7,006 nucleotides of DNA from Acidobacteriota bacterium. Its GTDB lineage: Bacteria; Acidobacteriota; Terriglobia; UBA7540. The stretch is taken from NCBI GenBank assembly GCA_003165615.1, contig PLWR01000425.1, forward strand, positions 1-7,006, given 5' to 3'. Both the position numbers and the translations under genes were made by a program. Under the pieces are notes generated by a model. The model did not search any database. It saw only the letters and a program-made list of their open reading frames with translations, and was not told where the DNA came from. Below, piece by piece: positions 295 to 6,473 of the stretch (position 1 is its first letter; each line of letters begins with the position of its first letter).

Positions 295-738
295 ATGAAA
301 AGCACTCTGACGGCTCTGCTCATCCTGATGATGGGAAGTATGCCAGCGTGGGCAGCGCTGGGTGATAATGTATCGTCGGTGGATTCCGATGCACAAGTTC
401 TGCGTGGTCAGCATCGTATGGTGGCCAAAGTGGGCTATAACCTCCATCAAATCACCGCTGCGGACGGCAGTGTCGTGAACGAATTTGTGTCTCCGGAAGG
501 AACAGTCTTCGGAGTTTCCTGGCAGGGACATTCCGTCCCCAATCTCCAGCAGTTGTTGGGATCCCATTTGGCAGATCTCCAACAAGGCCAGCGGACGCAA
601 GTTGTGCGGCGCCGCGCAATAACGATACAAACGGACAATTTTGTGTTTTCCAGTGCTGGGCACTCGCGATACTTCCGGGGACGCGCGTACGTTCCCAGCC
701 TGGTTCCCAGCAACCTCACAACGGAGGTGGTGCAATGA
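295..738 (+). CDS. DUF2844 family secreted protein (cassette 1)
   Basis: A 147-residue exported protein of unknown function. Residues 1-20 form a signal peptide: MK start, hydrophobic Leu/Ile/Met core, and AWA at 18-20 before ALGD, a good signal peptidase I site. The mature part has the DUF2844 landmarks that I recognise: LHQIT near 50-54, an E-F-V-S-P-x-G-T-V-F-G-V-S-W-Q-G block (about 63-78), LQQLLG (84-89), and a C-terminal GRAYVPSLVPSNL (129-141). The usual Gly-Gly-His-Met before that last block is here Ala-Gly-His-Ser. TTG at 292 is an alternative start adding one Met; I chose ATG 295, with AAGGTGGG (277-284) as ribosome site. The stop overlaps the next start (ATGA), so the two products should be made together. 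DUF2844 genes are typically found next to DUF3443 genes. Location is inferred to be periplasm or outside the cell. Confidence 0.85.
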   Translation: MKSTLTALLILMMGSMPAWAALGDNVSSVDSDAQVLRGQHRMVAKVGYNLHQITAADGSVVNEFVSPEGTVFGVSWQGHSVPNLQQLLGSHLADLQQGQRTQVVRRRAITIQTDNFVFSSAGHSRYFRGRAYVPSLVPSNLTTEVVQ

Positions 739-739
739 G
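722..739 (+). promoter_or_regulatory. Shine-Dalgarno and ATGA coupling site for DUF3443 (cassette 1)
   Basis: GGAGGT at 723-728 lies inside the last codons of the DUF2844 gene, 6 nt before the ATG at 735. Stop TGA (736-738) and start ATG share ATGA, a classic arrangement for translational coupling. The 18-nt block is repeated exactly at the same junction of the second cassette (4604-4621). Confidence 0.8.
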
Positions 740-2753
740 CCCTAAACCTCTTTCCTCTGCCACCCTTTTCCGTCTATTGGCTTTTATGGTGGGATTGGTC
801 ATCTTGGCGGGTTGCGGCGGCGGCTCCTCCAGTTCCCCCACGCCCCCCGCGGGTACCCCGGCAGCCACCCTTTCGGCTTCCACCCTTACCTTCTCAAGCC
901 AAGCCGTGGACACTACGAGCGCTGCTCAGCCGGTAACGGTCACCAACTCCGGCAGCGCCACACTCGGCTTCACGGGCTTCACATTGAGTGGTACGAACAG
1001 TAGTGATTTCACCATTTCCTCCAATACCTGTAGCTCCACCTTAGGCGAGAGCGGGACTTGCACGATCAGCGTGACGTTCACTCCCCAGGCATCCGGCACG
1101 CGCACGGGCACCGTGAACATCACCGACAACGCCAGCAACAGCCCGCAGACGGTGACCTTGACGGGAACGGCCGTAGTGCCGACGGTTTCGGTTTTGCCTT
1201 CCACCCTTGCCTTCACCAGCCAATTCCTGGGTATCCAGAGTTCTTCTCAAGCCGTCACGCTAACTAACAACACCAGTGCCACAATTACCATTTCCACCAT
1301 CACGCCGAGCGCAGACTTCCTCGCACCCAGCAACACCTGTGGCGCAAGCGTTGCCGCGGGCGGGAGTTGCACCATCAATGTGACGTTTATGCCCACAACG
1401 GCGGGCCTGCTTACCGGCACCCTGACGATTACGGACAGTGGCGCCAACAGTCCGCAGTCGGTAACCGTGACGGGTACGGGCTACTCGAACACGGTGGCCG
1501 TCACTGCCGGCTTCGGGGCCTTTGGGGACACCGGGAGCATTACCAGCAACTACTACAACGGGCTTTTTACCACGGTTACGGTTTGTACGCCCGGCACCAC
1601 GACCTGCGTGCCCGTCACCAACGTCCTGGTGGACACCGCTTCCGTAGGGTTGCGTATCCTTTCCACGCCGCTTAACGGTCTAACCTTACCCACGATCGCC
1701 GGGGATACCAGTGGCGACGTGCTGCAAGAGTGCTATGCCTATGGCGATTTGACGTATACCTGGGGTCCGGTGCAGTTGGCGACCGTACAGATTGCCGGAG
1801 AAACGGCAGTGCAAGTCCCGGGCGGAGCCGCCAACTCAGGGGTTCCCATTCAAGTCATCACTGCTGGGGGCACTGCCCCTTCAGGGGCAGCATGCACGAG
1901 CTCGGGAGGCGTTGCCTATACCAGTTCCAATACACCAGCGCTGCTGGGGGCCAACGGAATCCTGGGTGTCGGCAACACACCCCAGGATTGTGGCGCCGAC
2001 TGCGCGGCTGCCTCGTCCAGTCAGGAGCTCTATCTTGTCGGTGTCTGCTCCAGCAACAGCAACTGTGGATATGCTTCCGCCGTTCCCGTGACGCAACAGC
2101 TATGGAATCCCGTCGCGGCATTTTCTGCGTCTCCCACCGGCAGTTCGGACTCGAACGGCCTGGTGGTCACGCTGAACTCAGTGGGTGCGGGCGGAGCGGC
2201 TTCGGGGGCGGGAACGCTAACTTTCGGCATCGGCACCCAAACCTGTTCGGGCTCCCCGCAAGGATGCACCACGAATAGCATTACCAGCCAGACCATCTAT
2301 GAGCTCGACCAGAACCAAAACTTCCCCACAACCAGTTTCAACGGGGTCCCTTACACGTCGGCGGGCTTTCTCGACACCGGATCAAACTCCCTCTTTGTCT
2401 CGGACCCCGAAACCTTGAGTAGCGTAACCGGCACGAGCACCATCGATTGCGCGGATACTGACGATGCTTACTATTGCCCGAGTTTCCCCCTCAGTCTGAC
2501 CTTCTACAATACCAACGCCGGTGGCATTGCGACGCCGCTCACGGTGAGTATCGCCAATGCCGATTCCCTGTTTAGCGAATGCACCAGTTGCCAGGTGTTC
2601 AGCAACCTCGGGGGCCCTTCCGGCGGCACCGGCCCGTCGACTGATTACTTTGACTTCGGGCTGCCGTTCTTCTTTGGCAACACGGTTTTCATTGGCATCC
2701 AGGGCACGAGCGTAAACAACGTGACCTCCACCAATGGCTACGTGGCGTTTTAG
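735..2753 (+). CDS. DUF3443 lipoprotein with two ASH-type domains (cassette 1)
   Basis: A 672-residue lipoprotein. The signal peptide ends in lipobox L-A-G-C (24-27) followed by a Gly/Ser/Pro linker. Two ASH / choice-of-anchor D immunoglobulin-fold repeats follow (about 45-146 and 150-248), each ending in the typical T-F-x-P...G-T-x-x-I-T-D...L/V-T-G-T pattern. Residues about 253-672 are DUF3443, with a paired-Cys segment (C284, C291), LVDTAS (298-303), YG and YTWGPV (336-346), GANGILGVG (405-413), FLDTGSNSLFV (545-555) and FGLPFFFG (641-648), ending NGYVAF. The two D-T motifs plus the G-I-L-G-x-G and FGLPFFFG segments resemble a bilobed pepsin-type aspartic peptidase; that is my inference, since the family is named as unknown function. 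Compared with copy 2, a Cys-containing insertion lies near 504-511. The start is fixed by the overlap with DUF2844. A cell-surface or periplasmic lipid-anchored location is expected. Confidence 0.87.
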   Translation: MSPKPLSSATLFRLLAFMVGLVILAGCGGGSSSSPTPPAGTPAATLSASTLTFSSQAVDTTSAAQPVTVTNSGSATLGFTGFTLSGTNSSDFTISSNTCSSTLGESGTCTISVTFTPQASGTRTGTVNITDNASNSPQTVTLTGTAVVPTVSVLPSTLAFTSQFLGIQSSSQAVTLTNNTSATITISTITPSADFLAPSNTCGASVAAGGSCTINVTFMPTTAGLLTGTLTITDSGANSPQSVTVTGTGYSNTVAVTAGFGAFGDTGSITSNYYNGLFTTVTVCTPGTTTCVPVTNVLVDTASVGLRILSTPLNGLTLPTIAGDTSGDVLQECYAYGDLTYTWGPVQLATVQIAGETAVQVPGGAANSGVPIQVITAGGTAPSGAACTSSGGVAYTSSNTPALLGANGILGVGNTPQDCGADCAAASSSQELYLVGVCSSNSNCGYASAVPVTQQLWNPVAAFSASPTGSSDSNGLVVTLNSVGAGGAASGAGTLTFGIGTQTCSGSPQGCTTNSITSQTIYELDQNQNFPTTSFNGVPYTSAGFLDTGSNSLFVSDPETLSSVTGTSTIDCADTDDAYYCPSFPLSLTFYNTNAGGIATPLTVSIANADSLFSECTSCQVFSNLGGPSGGTGPSTDYFDFGLPFFFGNTVFIGIQGTSVNNVTSTNGYVAF

Positions 2754-2916: not shown

Positions 2917-3501
2917 GTGAGGAAATCGCACCCCCCGATTTCCTATGCCATGAAAGATATTACCGAAACAGTTGAAAGAGCCGTAAGAACAGTTTATTCA
3001 AAATACATTGATCCGTTGCCAAAAGATGAGCGTATACCCCTCCAATTATTGGTAGGAGTCTTTTCTCGGGACCATGGCCTAACTCTCTTTAAAACGGATC
3101 GAACCACGGCAACTCCGGTCGATAGATTCGACGTAATAGGAACCGGAGGAGTTCTAGCCCAATTAATGATAGAAATACTGGATACCCCCTACTACAACCT
3201 GGTATCCGATGCGAGACTTCTGGGGATATATGCTCTCAGGGTTGCCATGGAATATGACACCTACACAGGGAAAGCCAGCCGGATGAAAATCCTATATCAA
3301 GATGGGCAGATAGAAACCGCTTCCCCAGAAGAGGTTAGCGATACTGAGAATTTTTTTGCCCGGTTGTTTTTGTCCATTCAGGATATTTTAAGAGTTGCTC
3401 TGTATTCAGAAATTCCGGTCGAAAGCATTGAATCTACGGCAGATATTAAGGGCATTATTATGGAATTCAGAGAAAGGCACGAAAGGCGGAAAGTGAAGTG
3501 A
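2917..3501 (+). CDS. Proteasome-like Ntn-hydrolase C-terminal half, N-terminally truncated
   Basis: A 194-residue product from GTG 2917 (AGGGG at 2906-2910) or 183 from ATG 2950; an in-frame TAG at 2905 blocks extension. Tentatively, it follows the second half of a 20S-proteasome beta-type fold: helix (about 16-30), strand LQLLVGVF (42-49), strand GLTLFKTD (53-60), D-R-F-D-V-I-G-T-G-G (69-78) into helix VLAQLMIEIL, then DARLLGIYALRVAMEYDTYTG (98-118) and a strand ending in Q-D-G. In that family the nucleophilic Thr and its Asp/Lys partners lie in the first 35 mature residues, which are absent; only 163 nt separate it from the previous gene. It is therefore probably a non-catalytic remnant. 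Sample lines are about 40% GC against over 60% in the flanking cassettes, suggesting separate origin. The family call is by fold pattern and may be wrong. It ends 4 nt from the converging gene. Confidence 0.5.
   Translation: MRKSHPPISYAMKDITETVERAVRTVYSKYIDPLPKDERIPLQLLVGVFSRDHGLTLFKTDRTTATPVDRFDVIGTGGVLAQLMIEILDTPYYNLVSDARLLGIYALRVAMEYDTYTGKASRMKILYQDGQIETASPEEVSDTENFFARLFLSIQDILRVALYSEIPVESIESTADIKGIIMEFRERHERRKVK
2920..2944 (+). other. Perfect 9-bp stem-loop at the 5' edge of the low-GC gene
   Basis: AGGAAATCG (2920-2928) is the exact reverse complement of CGATTTCCT (2936-2944), with a C-rich 7-nt loop. It lies between the two possible starts, directly after GTG 2917 and 5 nt before ATG 2950, and coincides with the drop in GC. 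It could hinder or select the start, or mark the junction where the gene lost its front half. Confidence 0.5.
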
Positions 3502-3505
3502 GGGA

Positions 3506-3739
3506 CTAACTATACCAAATCCATTTAATCATGCGGACAACCCCGATGAGGGCGGCAATGGAAGCGACTAACCAAAGAATCAACGAAGAAATCATGGCGA
3601 TCCAGTTCTCGTTGGAGGCTATCCACAGGATGTACGCGATTAAGGCAGCGATGGCAGCGCATAACAGCCATCCCCACCACGGGAGGGCTGACGGGCTAAT
3701 CAGAAAGTCCGATTGCAGCACAGCAAATACAGCCATCAT
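3506..3739 (-). CDS. Small two-helix membrane protein
   Basis: A 77-residue hydrophobic protein of no family that I recognise. Two membrane helices are evident: roughly residues 20-41 (Trp-rich entry, then L-L-C-A-A-I-A-A-L-I-A-Y-I-L) and 46-70 (I-A-M-I-S-S-L-I-L-W-L-V-A-S-I-A-A-L-I-G-V-V), joined by a short polar S-N-E-N turn. It ends in a basic/aromatic tail. I chose ATG 3737-3739 rather than the longer start at 3769 because it makes an ATGA overlap with the stop of the upstream basic-protein gene. The next codon is also ATG. There is no independent Shine-Dalgarno, so translation is probably coupled to the upstream gene. It ends 4 nt from the converging proteasome-like gene. It could be a membrane partner of the upstream protein; nothing in the sequence shows its role. 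Confidence 0.62.
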   Translation of the reverse strand: MMAVFAVLQSDFLISPSALPWWGWLLCAAIAALIAYILWIASNENWIAMISSLILWLVASIAALIGVVRMIKWIWYS

Positions 3740-3960
3740 TGGGCAATTTCCCGCGTCTTTTTTGACCAACGCGCTTGGGCGGCCCTGGCTGCGATCTCTT
3801 TCCGTCGGGCCGGACTCAAAGCGGCAGCCCGAGCTGGCCCACCCTTCGGCCCTCCGAGCTTTCCGAGAGCTACAGCAGCGGGGTTCTTTTCGCGGGCCTC
3901 AATCTGGTCGAATACTTTTTTGGCAAGCAAGATCGGGTCGGTTCTTGAGCGTTTAGGCAT
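3736..3960 (-). CDS. Small basic Lys/Arg/Ala-rich protein with GG-x-KGG motif
   Basis: A 74-residue, strongly basic protein. The N-terminal third (about 8-24) looks helical. It is followed by N-P-A-A-V-A-L-G-K-L-G-G-P-K-G-G-P-A-R-A (26-45), then L-S-P-A-R-R-K-E-I-A-A-R-A-A-Q-A-R-W (48-65) and a short charged tail. The A-L-G-x-L-G-G-x-K-G-G-x-A-R...L-S-P-x-R-R-x-E-I-A-x-x-A-A-x-A-R-W pattern is one that I recognise as recurrent in small uncharacterised bacterial proteins. It resembles, but is not the same as, the KGG stress-protein repeat. Nucleic-acid binding is plausible from charge only. It is the first gene of a two-gene minus-strand unit, its TGA overlapping the next ATG. No strong Shine-Dalgarno precedes the ATG at 3960. 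The pair lies between the two duplicated cassettes, in opposite orientation. Confidence 0.72.
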   Translation of the reverse strand: MPKRSRTDPILLAKKVFDQIEAREKNPAAVALGKLGGPKGGPARAAALSPARRKEIAARAAQARWSKKTREIAQ

Positions 3961-4173: not shown

Positions 4174-4620
4174 ATGAAAACCTTTTGCGGAGTCTTGCTC
4201 ATCCTGATGTTGGGGGCTGTGCCCATGTGGGCAGCGCTCGGTGAGCCGGAATCGACAGTGAGTGCGGACGGGCAATTCCTGCGGGGTCAAATTCGCGACG
4301 AAGTTCATCAGGGCTATCGACTTCATCAAATTACCGATCCCAGCGGCGGGGTGATTCGCGAGTATGTCTCGCCGGCGGGCAAAGTCTTTGGGATTTCCTG
4401 GCAGGGTCCCTTTGTGCCCAACATGCAGCAGTTATTGGGAACCTACTTCACCTATGTCCAGCAATACGCGCAGGCCCAAACGGGACGTCACAGCGGCCCC
4501 CTCAGCATGCAGAAGGATGATTTTGTTTTCACCTGCGGCGGGCACATGCGATGGCGCTACGGCCGCGCTTACGTGCCCAGCCTCTTGCCCACCAACCTTT
4601 CCCCGGAGGTGGTGCAATGA
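4174..4620 (+). CDS. DUF2844 family secreted protein (cassette 2)
   Basis: A 148-residue paralogue of the protein at 295-738. I chose ATG 4174 because it places a proper signal peptide at the N terminus (residues 1-20, ending M-W-A before ALGE), collinear with copy 1; GTGGAGG at 4164-4170 sits close in front. Upstream in-frame ATGs (4108, 4147) would bury the signal peptide behind an Arg-rich stretch. Shared blocks are LRGQ (36-39), LHQIT (50-54), E-Y-V-S-P-A-G-K-V-F-G-I-S-W-Q-G (63-78), MQQLLG (84-89) and GRAYVPSLLPTNL (130-142). This copy keeps the Gly-Gly-His-Met (122-125) expected of the family, which copy 1 has lost. Function unknown; it presumably works with the DUF3443 protein encoded from its last bases. 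Confidence 0.85.
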   Translation: MKTFCGVLLILMLGAVPMWAALGEPESTVSADGQFLRGQIRDEVHQGYRLHQITDPSGGVIREYVSPAGKVFGISWQGPFVPNMQQLLGTYFTYVQQYAQAQTGRHSGPLSMQKDDFVFTCGGHMRWRYGRAYVPSLLPTNLSPEVVQ

Positions 4621-4621
4621 G
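4604..4621 (+). promoter_or_regulatory. Shine-Dalgarno and ATGA coupling site for DUF3443 (cassette 2)
   Basis: This is identical over 18 nt to the site at 722-739: GGAGGT (4605-4610) 6 nt before ATG 4617, with the DUF2844 stop TGA at 4618-4620. It decides the start of the downstream gene, because a longer reading from ATG 4551 would place 22 residues before the lipoprotein signal. Confidence 0.82.
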
Positions 4622-6473
4622 GCTTAAGAACATACCCGTGGCCACATGGGCAAGCCTCCTGGTGGTGGCGAGCGGGGTATTTTTGACCAGTTGTGGTGGT
4701 GGGGGCACGGGCAATAACATCCCCTTCCCCGTCGTTACCCTTTCGCCCGCTTCCGCGTCGGTTGCAGCGGGAGCCCCGCTGCAATTTACCGCCACCGTGG
4801 TGAGCCTGACCAACACAACCATTACCTGGTCTGTAAATAACATCCTCGGGGGCAATTCCACTGTGGGCACGGTTAGCACTTCGGGATTATACCTGGCGCC
4901 CGCTTCCGTCCCCAATCCGGCCACGGTGACAGTTAAAGCCACCAGCTCGGCGGAAACCAATCCCTACGGCGCGGCGATTGTAACGATTACGGCTCCAGTG
5001 GTGAATGCCGCGGTTGCCATTGTCCCGCTCGACGCTTCGATTTTGGCGGGAACGGCGGTGCAGTTTGCCGCCACGGTCACCGGAACCGACAATTCCGCTG
5101 TCACCTGGTACGTGAATGGCACGGCGGGAGGCAGTTCGGCGGTGGGCACGATCTCCCCTTCCGGACTTTATCAGGGGCCCACAACGGTACCGAATCCTGC
5201 TACGGTTGTGGTGACCGCCACCAGCCAGGCCAGCACCAGCGACTCCGCTTCCACCACCGTAACGCTGACATCCAGCAATACCGCACCCCTGTTCGTCAAC
5301 TTTGGGCTCAATGGAAACACCGGTAATCCCAATACCGCGCACTACAACGGGCTTTTCACAACCATAAAGGTTTGCTTGCCGGGCACGCCCATTTGCCAGA
5401 TTATCCCCGACATTCTGGTGGATACGAGCTCGGTGGGTTTGCGAGTCCTTGATTCCGCCCTCACCATAGTTCCGGCTACCGAGCTGGGGACGGTTAAAGA
5501 CTCCTCCGGGAATCAAGTGGAGGAGTGCGTCCAATTCCCCGACACCTCTTACACCTGGGGACCGGTGGTGGTTGCCGATGTGGTCCTTGGTGGCGAAACG
5601 GCCTCCGCCGTTCACATGCAGGTGATGGGCGATACCACGTTTCCCGTCCCTTATTCCAGTTGCCTGAGCCTTGGCTCCGGCCCCAGTCTTGACACGGTAG
5701 CAGCGCTGGGCGCCAACGGCATTCTGGGCATCGGCAACTCCCTTCAGGATTGCGGCCTTAACTGTGCGGGGGGGCAAACCTTCTCCGCCTATCCCTATTA
5801 CGTTTGTCCCAATTACGTGTGCCAGGCGGCGCCACTTCCGGTGGTGCAACAAGTTGCCAATCCTGTGGCCTTCTTTACCAAGGACAATAACGGCGTGGAA
5901 ATTATCCTGCCGGCGATTTCTTCCGTGGGAGCACCTGCGCTTCCTTACGCGAATGCGGATGGAACGGGCTTGATCCCTGCCGGTCAACTGATCTTCGGGG
6001 TCGGAACCGAACCCAACAACGGTCTGGGAAGTGCCACCCTCTATGCCTTGGACACCAACGGCAACTTCCCCCAAGTTGTCTTCGATGGCTTTACCTATTC
6101 CTCGGGTGGATCCCTCAACACGGCCGCGAATGCCCTCTATCTCGCCAATCCTCTTGCCCTCGGCATACTGAATTGTGCGGACAACCCCTACTACTGCCCG
6201 GGTTCGACCACTCCCATTTCCCTCACCACCTACGGAGCCAATGGCGCTTCGGGGACGGTGGTGCTGAATATCGCCAACGCCGACCTGCTTTTTGCCGACA
6301 ACCCTGACTTCTCCGCCTTCAACAACCTGGCACAGGAGAGCATCAGCGGATTGTCGACCGATTATTTTGAACTGGGATTGCCATTCTTCTTCGGCCGCAA
6401 CGTATTCGTGGGGATTGCGGGTACGACCGTTCCTAACAGTGCCAGCGCCCCGAACGGATATGTCGCCTTTTAG
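4617..6473 (+). CDS. DUF3443 lipoprotein with two Ig-like domains (cassette 2)
   Basis: A 618-residue lipoprotein, paralogous to the 735-2753 product in its C-terminal part only. The signal peptide ends in lipobox L-T-S-C (23-26) plus a Gly-rich linker. Two bacterial Ig-like (Big_2-like) repeats follow, about 38-126 and 130-217, each with the S-G-L-Y-x-x-P...V-P-N-P-A-T-V pattern. DUF3443 spans about 222-618: Cys pair C253/C260, LVDTSS (267-272), SYTWGPV (311-317), GANGILGIG (365-373), GVGTEPNNGLGSATLYALD (461-479), SLNTAANALYL (499-509) and LGLPFFFG (586-593), ending NGYVAF. The second aspartate of copy 1 (D547) is here N501, and the flap-like Y-G becomes F-P (307-308). If the fold is aspartic-peptidase-like, this copy is probably inactive or altered. 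It is coupled to DUF2844 through ATGA. A long antisense reading frame lies opposite but has no gene character. Confidence 0.87.
   Translation: MRLKNIPVATWASLLVVASGVFLTSCGGGGTGNNIPFPVVTLSPASASVAAGAPLQFTATVVSLTNTTITWSVNNILGGNSTVGTVSTSGLYLAPASVPNPATVTVKATSSAETNPYGAAIVTITAPVVNAAVAIVPLDASILAGTAVQFAATVTGTDNSAVTWYVNGTAGGSSAVGTISPSGLYQGPTTVPNPATVVVTATSQASTSDSASTTVTLTSSNTAPLFVNFGLNGNTGNPNTAHYNGLFTTIKVCLPGTPICQIIPDILVDTSSVGLRVLDSALTIVPATELGTVKDSSGNQVEECVQFPDTSYTWGPVVVADVVLGGETASAVHMQVMGDTTFPVPYSSCLSLGSGPSLDTVAALGANGILGIGNSLQDCGLNCAGGQTFSAYPYYVCPNYVCQAAPLPVVQQVANPVAFFTKDNNGVEIILPAISSVGAPALPYANADGTGLIPAGQLIFGVGTEPNNGLGSATLYALDTNGNFPQVVFDGFTYSSGGSLNTAANALYLANPLALGILNCADNPYYCPGSTTPISLTTYGANGASGTVVLNIANADLLFADNPDFSAFNNLAQESISGLSTDYFELGLPFFFGRNVFVGIAGTTVPNSASAPNGYVAF

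Follow-up and report, generated by a model that had tools for sequence, protein, structure and literature searches.

DUF3443 proteins: a probable family of exported, pepsin-fold aspartic peptidases in bacteria, encoded next to DUF2844

Results and Discussion

The window analyzed here, a 7,006-nucleotide stretch of an Acidobacteriota bacterium (contig PLWR01000425.1), contains two cassettes of the same kind, defined by open reading frames (ORFs) and Pfam matches, in which a DUF2844 gene precedes a DUF3443 gene. The analysis of the larger proteins suggests that DUF3443, still labeled "unknown function" in Pfam, is a bacterial pepsin-type protease group that has so far been overlooked. With a probability of roughly 0.7, we propose that DUF3443 is an exported, usually lipid-anchored family with a bilobed pepsin fold, that its canonical members work like pepsin, and that DUF2844 is their likely partner. 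Pepsin fold, export signals, and a conserved pair of aspartates are supported by computation, and from these we infer proteolysis. The features of the first DUF3443 protein (copy 1) that carry this proposal are as follows.

735..2753 (+): DUF3443 copy 1, 672 residues (ORF and Pfam)
804..815 (+): lipobox LAGC, residues 24-27, predicted lipid anchor (sequence motif)
855..1481 (+): two ASPM/SPD-2/Hydin-like (choice-of-anchor D) beta domains, residues 41-249 (PF15780, PF22073; NF012200, E 5.6e-34)
1485..2750 (+): DUF3443 domain, residues 251-672, predicted bilobed pepsin fold (Pfam, predicted structure)
1629..1643 (+): lobe-1 active-site motif VDTAS, residues 299-303, with Asp300 at 1632-1634; family consensus VDTGS
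1740..1766 (+): flap-like hairpin YGDLTYTWG, residues 336-344 (model, conservation; opposite the pepsin flap in the profile alignment)
1953..1973 (+): lobe-1 psi-loop NGILGVG, residues 407-413 (profile alignment, conservation)
2367..2399 (+): lobe-2 active-site motif FLDTGSNSLFV, residues 545-555, with Asp547 at 2373-2375 (conservation)
2649..2678 (+): lobe-2 psi-loop segment FDFGLPFFFG, residues 639-648 (model secondary structure, conservation)

Predicted Fold of the DUF3443 Domain

An earlier sequence-only reading of this DNA had described copy 1 as a lipid-anchored, aspartic-peptidase-like protein on the basis of five landmarks. All five are present where it placed them: LVDTAS (298-303), YGDLTYTWG (336-344), NGILGVG (407-413), FLDTGSNSLFV (545-555), and GLPFFFG (642-648). 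The span it had assigned, 1626-2690, does correspond to residues 298-652, but the Pfam domain extends further, to residue 672. The PF11925 match covers residues 268-672 (E 8.6e-79), and the bit scores for the two copies in the window, 265.5 and 298.1, are above the Pfam gathering cut-off of 25.

Structure prediction of this domain had been set beforehand as a check. The resulting model, of residues 251-672, can be matched along its whole length to pepsin-type structures, with two predicted lobes in one chain; at least 125 of its 422 residues fall outside the aligned pepsin core. Sequence profiles point in the same direction. We compared 193 DUF3443 domains, of which the program used 100, with four pepsin-type PDB sequences in local mode. 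The alignment is co-linear: VDTGS, the flap, ILG, and (I/L)DSGS each meet their pepsin counterpart, and both Asp motifs are paired. Its score of 30.0 exceeds that of the best of 60 column shuffles (23.8) and that of the reversed alignment (17.1). When lobe 1 of DUF3443 was compared with lobe 2, a 16-column match identified the two Asp loops (score 22.1; the best of 40 shuffles reached 19.4). PMC2761423 describes the lobes of pepsin as alike in two places only, the Asp motif and hydrophobic-hydrophobic-Gly. We regard both the bilobed pepsin fold of clan AA and the Asp pair as well supported for DUF3443.

That the likeness of motifs arose by chance on a different fold is scarcely credible. The sequence signal to pepsins is indeed very weak or absent, and PDB sequence searches with copy 1 and with the DUF3443 profile found no pepsin, but the predicted structure speaks against coincidence.

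Conservation of the Active-Site Motifs

Homologues, genome loci, and three plasmid loci provided 227 domains, from which a database duplicate of window copy 1 had already been removed; discarding 17 short or duplicate ones left 210 distinct domains, each 300 residues or longer. The landmarks are conserved above chance in this set, and both aspartates are retained across the domains examined, as the sequence-only reading required. The position of Asp300 is D in 209 domains and E in one; that of Asp547 is D in 202, N in five, and S, A, and E in one each. Both are intact in all 19 domains that were new from locus L031 onward. The family consensus in each lobe is hydrophobic-hydrophobic-Asp-(Ser/Thr)-Gly-(Ser/Thr), with Gly at position 549 in 200 domains and at position 302 in 196 (Ala in three). 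The Ala302 of copy 1, which had been singled out as odd, is a departure within the family itself. Copy 1 departs from the consensus in lobe 1 (DTAS), and the second protein in both lobes (DTSS, NTAA).

The lobe-1 psi-loop conforms to hydrophobic-hydrophobic-Gly (mostly I/L/V-L-G), and its Gly411 is invariant (210/210). Arg307, aligned with Trp39 of pepsin, is Arg in 208 domains. Position 336, aligned with the flap residue Tyr75, is Phe in 144, Tyr in 65, and Ala in one, while the nearby Tyr341 is kept in 196. In lobe 2, we infer from model secondary structure (strand, Gly, short helix) that FDFGLPFFFG of copy 1 corresponds to ILGDVF of pepsin. This would put Asp640, which is Asp in 199 domains, at the first hydrophobic position of the motif. 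Most members have Leu after the lobe-2 Gly.

The number of database proteins matching the DUF3443 domain is at least 4866 (7994 candidates scored). The named records that we met belong to Terriglobia/Acidobacteria, Burkholderiales, and one metagenome-assembled genome of Verrucomicrobiae. Broader genome samples seldom contain the domain: it occurs in 3 of 149 genomes from the phylum (counting G001), 4 of 100 from the class of G069, and 3 of 17 from the order of G155. No paper naming DUF3443 was found in the literature searched.

Export and the DUF2844 Partner

A lipobox marks lipid anchoring, and the anchoring proposed for copy 1 fits its LAGC motif. Of 176 members whose first residue resembles a start, 130 have a similar motif within the first 50 residues; the control segment, residues 101-150, gave three. 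The DUF3443 proteins would thus be predicted to be exported and usually lipid-anchored. The companion genes and their junctions in the window are listed below.

295..738 (+): DUF2844 gene 1 (PF11005, E 6.6e-35); ORF from TTG 292, ATG at 295
about 355 (+): predicted mature start A-L-G of DUF2844 gene 1, after a signal peptide with an AWA site (signal peptidase rule)
735..738 (+): ATGA overlap of DUF2844 gene 1 stop and DUF3443 copy 1 start (sequence)
4174..4620 (+): DUF2844 gene 2 (PF11005, E 2.5e-35), predicted mature start A-L-G at about 4234; ORF listed from 4108, family match from 4174
4617..4620 (+): ATGA overlap of DUF2844 gene 2 stop and DUF3443 copy 2 start (sequence)

Signal peptidase recognizes A-x-A before its cleavage site. 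Among 120 listed DUF2844 homologues, 105, including those of the window, show A-x-A followed by x-L-G; if the rule holds here, x-L-G is a conserved mature N-terminus. The predicted DUF2844 structure is a small alpha/beta domain (predicted local distance difference test, pLDDT, 83.7; predicted template modeling score, pTM, 0.80; pLDDT 72-75 for the first 20 residues), for which a search of the PDB returned no confident fold relative.

The two families travel together. Among 40 genomes of the order of G001, DUF3443 occurs in 30 and DUF2844 in 28, and every genome with DUF2844 also has DUF3443 (Fisher p 7.8e-8, without correction for kinship). Two genomes, G002 and G003, have DUF3443 with no DUF2844 match, and their contigs may be cut at the locus. 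Each of the 30 DUF2844 places is followed on the same strand by a DUF3443 match, at a distance of 123 to 1482 bases (one DUF3443 row that scored under the family cut-off was left out). DUF2844 was also found in six of eight genomes picked for having DUF3443. The genes overlap in frame by a 4-base (A/G)TGA in 22 of 23 pairs, drawn from 20 fetched loci (from 20 of the 28 genomes) and the window; the exception, L103, lacks an open DUF3443 frame at that point. Outside these genomes, a Paraburkholderia plasmid carries the annotated pair, and a Burkholderia cenocepacia record has a DUF2844 match upstream of DUF3443; beside a Caballeronia DUF3443 gene, no neighboring DUF2844 is annotated.

A further gene recurs about 1 kb upstream of DUF2844 in six of the 20 fetched loci (L089, L092, L098-L101). 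Its representative from L099 has weak, sub-cut-off matches to Metal_resist and LTXXQ, a possible hint of a link to envelope stress.

Copies with Altered Active-Site Residues

A catalytic Asp is replaced in nine of the 210 domains. The second DUF3443 protein of the window has lost the second Asp.

4617..6473 (+): DUF3443 copy 2, 618 residues, predicted pseudoenzyme (PF11925, E 1.1e-88)
5418..5432 (+): lobe-1 motif VDTSS, residues 268-272 (sequence)
6114..6143 (+): lobe-2 motif LNTAANALYL, residues 500-509; Asn501 (6117-6119) replaces the catalytic Asp

We set the start of copy 2 at 4617 instead of the listed ORF start at 4551 because of the ATGA overlap and a lipobox (LTSC, residues 23-26). Its N-terminal part has weak Ig-like matches. 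Among the nine domains with a replaced Asp are those of the final genes of the tandem arrays in L001 (NSRLS), L002 (ASRLS), and L003 (NSRSS), which form one clade of three with support 1.0. In the tree group of copy 2, 25 of 30 members retain both aspartates. Pairwise omega (ratio of nonsynonymous to synonymous rates, dN/dS) is 0.15-0.16 among the three Asp-less array-end copies, 0.18 between copy 2 and L052, which kept its Asp, 0.19 between copy 2 and the L001 copy, and 0.19 for an intact pair; these values are rough, as dS exceeds 1 in four of six comparisons and the frames of fetched loci were taken stop to stop. Given the low omega, the Asp-less copies appear to be retained by selection as proteins. 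Copy 2 is a predicted pseudoenzyme with its DUF2844 gene still in place.

Tandem arrays of two or more DUF3443 genes occur in L001, L003, and genomes G374 and G370, the last with two successive DUF2844-DUF3443 cassettes as in the window. In the middle gene of the L003 array (782-residue ORF), Glu replaces the Asp of lobe 2 (IESGS), in contrast to the Asn forms. In L019/L020 (G184:C124), the DUF3443 match beside a DUF2844 match is split into open frames of 400 and 152 residues, through either a broken gene or an assembly error.

Proposed Mode of Action and Alternatives

We read the canonical DUF3443 proteins as most likely being exported endopeptidases of pepsin-like type. Each lobe would contribute one Asp, the pair would hold an activated water in the cleft beneath the flap hairpin, and the peptide bonds of periplasmic or cell-surface substrates would be hydrolyzed. 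DUF3443 shows no recognized propeptide. DUF2844, the product of the translationally coupled upstream gene, is likely a partner exported in parallel, and may cover part of the role of a propeptide by helping folding, blocking the cleft, or both. A bolder version would make DUF2844 a pepsin propeptide turned separate, cotranslated subunit, whose x-Leu-Gly N-terminus fills the DUF3443 cleft, silences the enzyme, and aids folding until displaced, with Asp-less neighboring paralogues as decoys or regulators. We offer this only tentatively. Such an entry of the DUF2844 N-terminus would be akin to nematode pepsin inhibitor-3, the N-terminus of which enters the cleft of pepsin.

Several observations count against proteolysis, or against kinship with pepsins. 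PF00026 matched none of 53 DUF3443 members at E <= 10. The profile comparison with the four pepsin-type sequences yielded its co-linear alignment, but the match taken alone is statistically weak (probability 8%, E 0.0041 for one comparison). In the great majority of the 210 domains, the lobe-2 psi-loop reads D-(L/F)-G and so, on an equivalence drawn from model secondary structure, departs from hydrophobic-hydrophobic-Gly. Copy 1 itself may be weakened as an enzyme, given DTAS instead of DTGS. These departures in psi-loop, flap, and DTAS are real grounds for caution: excerpts of PMC2761423 judge two bacterial homologues lacking the psi-loop motifs much likelier to be inactive and state that no homologue with Phe75 had been shown to be active at that time. 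The same source reports that rhizopuspepsin with Tyr75 changed to Phe keeps some, weakened activity. The aspartic-peptidase-like description thus holds for fold and Asp pair, whereas the strict marks of family A1 are partly lacking; lobe-2 hydrophobic-hydrophobic-Gly, a strict flap Tyr, and detectable similarity to the Pfam A1 model are missing, so that we call the family pepsin-like and do not place it in A1.

The altered psi-loop and flap would also suit proteins that kept the pepsin fold mainly for binding, as surface receptors or adhesins for peptides or glycans, with a structural Asp pair. Ig-like or ASPM-like domains give DUF3443 proteins a surface-protein architecture, copies without a catalytic Asp appear to be under purifying selection, and eukaryotic precedents exist in the plant xylanase inhibitor and the pregnancy-associated glycoproteins (portions of PMC2761423). 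As described there, however, these precedents lack a conserved active-site Asp, whereas 201 of the 210 DUF3443 domains have neither catalytic Asp replaced, mostly within D-(T/S)-G-(S/T). We therefore consider a mainly binding role unlikely. Far less likely still is that DUF3443 proteins are recent acquisitions of eukaryotic A1 enzymes or ordinary bacterial A1 enzymes of the shewasin type. They would share the predicted fold with pepsins, and Leu after the lobe-2 Gly recurs in the Shewanella and Colwellia homologues (PMC2761423, in part). Against this origin stand the absence of PF00026 matches among the 53 members, the single match at the cut-off in 297 genomes of the phylum, and the export and Cys-richness of DUF3443, compared with bacterial A1 homologues described in that excerpt as signal-less. 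A pepsin-like exported peptidase remains our preferred reading of the canonical members.

Other Open Reading Frames in the Window

Between the cassettes, a 194-residue ORF (2917-3501, +) weakly matches TIGR03634 (archaeal proteasome beta; E 4e-4, far under cut-off) and the HslV peptidase family phrog_1040 (E 4e-4), and possibly encodes a divergent protein of N-terminal nucleophile (Ntn) hydrolase type. A small basic ORF (3736-3960, -) weakly matches phrog_2384, for which no function is assigned there (E 6e-5), and gave no match in a Pfam scan.

Comparison with Known Systems

According to PMC2761423, two-lobed pepsins passed for purely eukaryotic proteins before a small number of bacterial homologues without signal peptides came to light, and the choice between ancient presence and transfer was left open. 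Aspartic types made up 0.6% of bacterial secreted peptidases in one survey (PMC6411800, in part). A sizeable exported pepsin-like family would alter such counts and supply testable material on the origin of pepsin; should the two-lobed fold have a long history in bacteria, the family would bear on how pepsins of this form arose. The link to DUF2844 offers a ready two-gene system for biochemistry.

With the pepsin family (MEROPS A1/PF00026: pepsin, endothiapepsin, Irpex lacteus proteinase 1wkr), DUF3443 shares the predicted bilobed fold over the whole domain, an Asp motif per lobe, the flap hairpin, the lobe-1 hydrophobic-hydrophobic-Gly psi-loop, and export. It differs in lacking PF00026 matches and a recognized propeptide, in Arg at the Trp39 position, Asp in the lobe-2 psi-loop, and mostly Phe at the flap Tyr, in extra residues with conserved Cys outside the core, and in the coupled DUF2844 gene. 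Shewasins, as portrayed in portions of PMC2761423, are likewise bilobed with two conserved aspartates, but they come from seven bacterial genomes, carry no signal peptides, and are recognized as A1 by sequence. The retropepsin-like bacterial A2-type proteases Rlo and RimB belong to the same clan and are aspartic, and Rlo is secreted (excerpts of PMC12239564 and PMC11957791); Rlo is a dimer of single lobes, whereas DUF3443 would combine both lobes in one chain. A one-lobe, one-motif retropepsin (A2) chain was rejected for DUF3443, given two motifs per chain and a model that matches whole two-lobed pepsins. The plant xylanase inhibitor and pregnancy-associated glycoproteins, pepsin folds without the full catalytic pair in the account of PMC2761423, compare with copy 2, in contrast to the great majority of DUF3443 domains.
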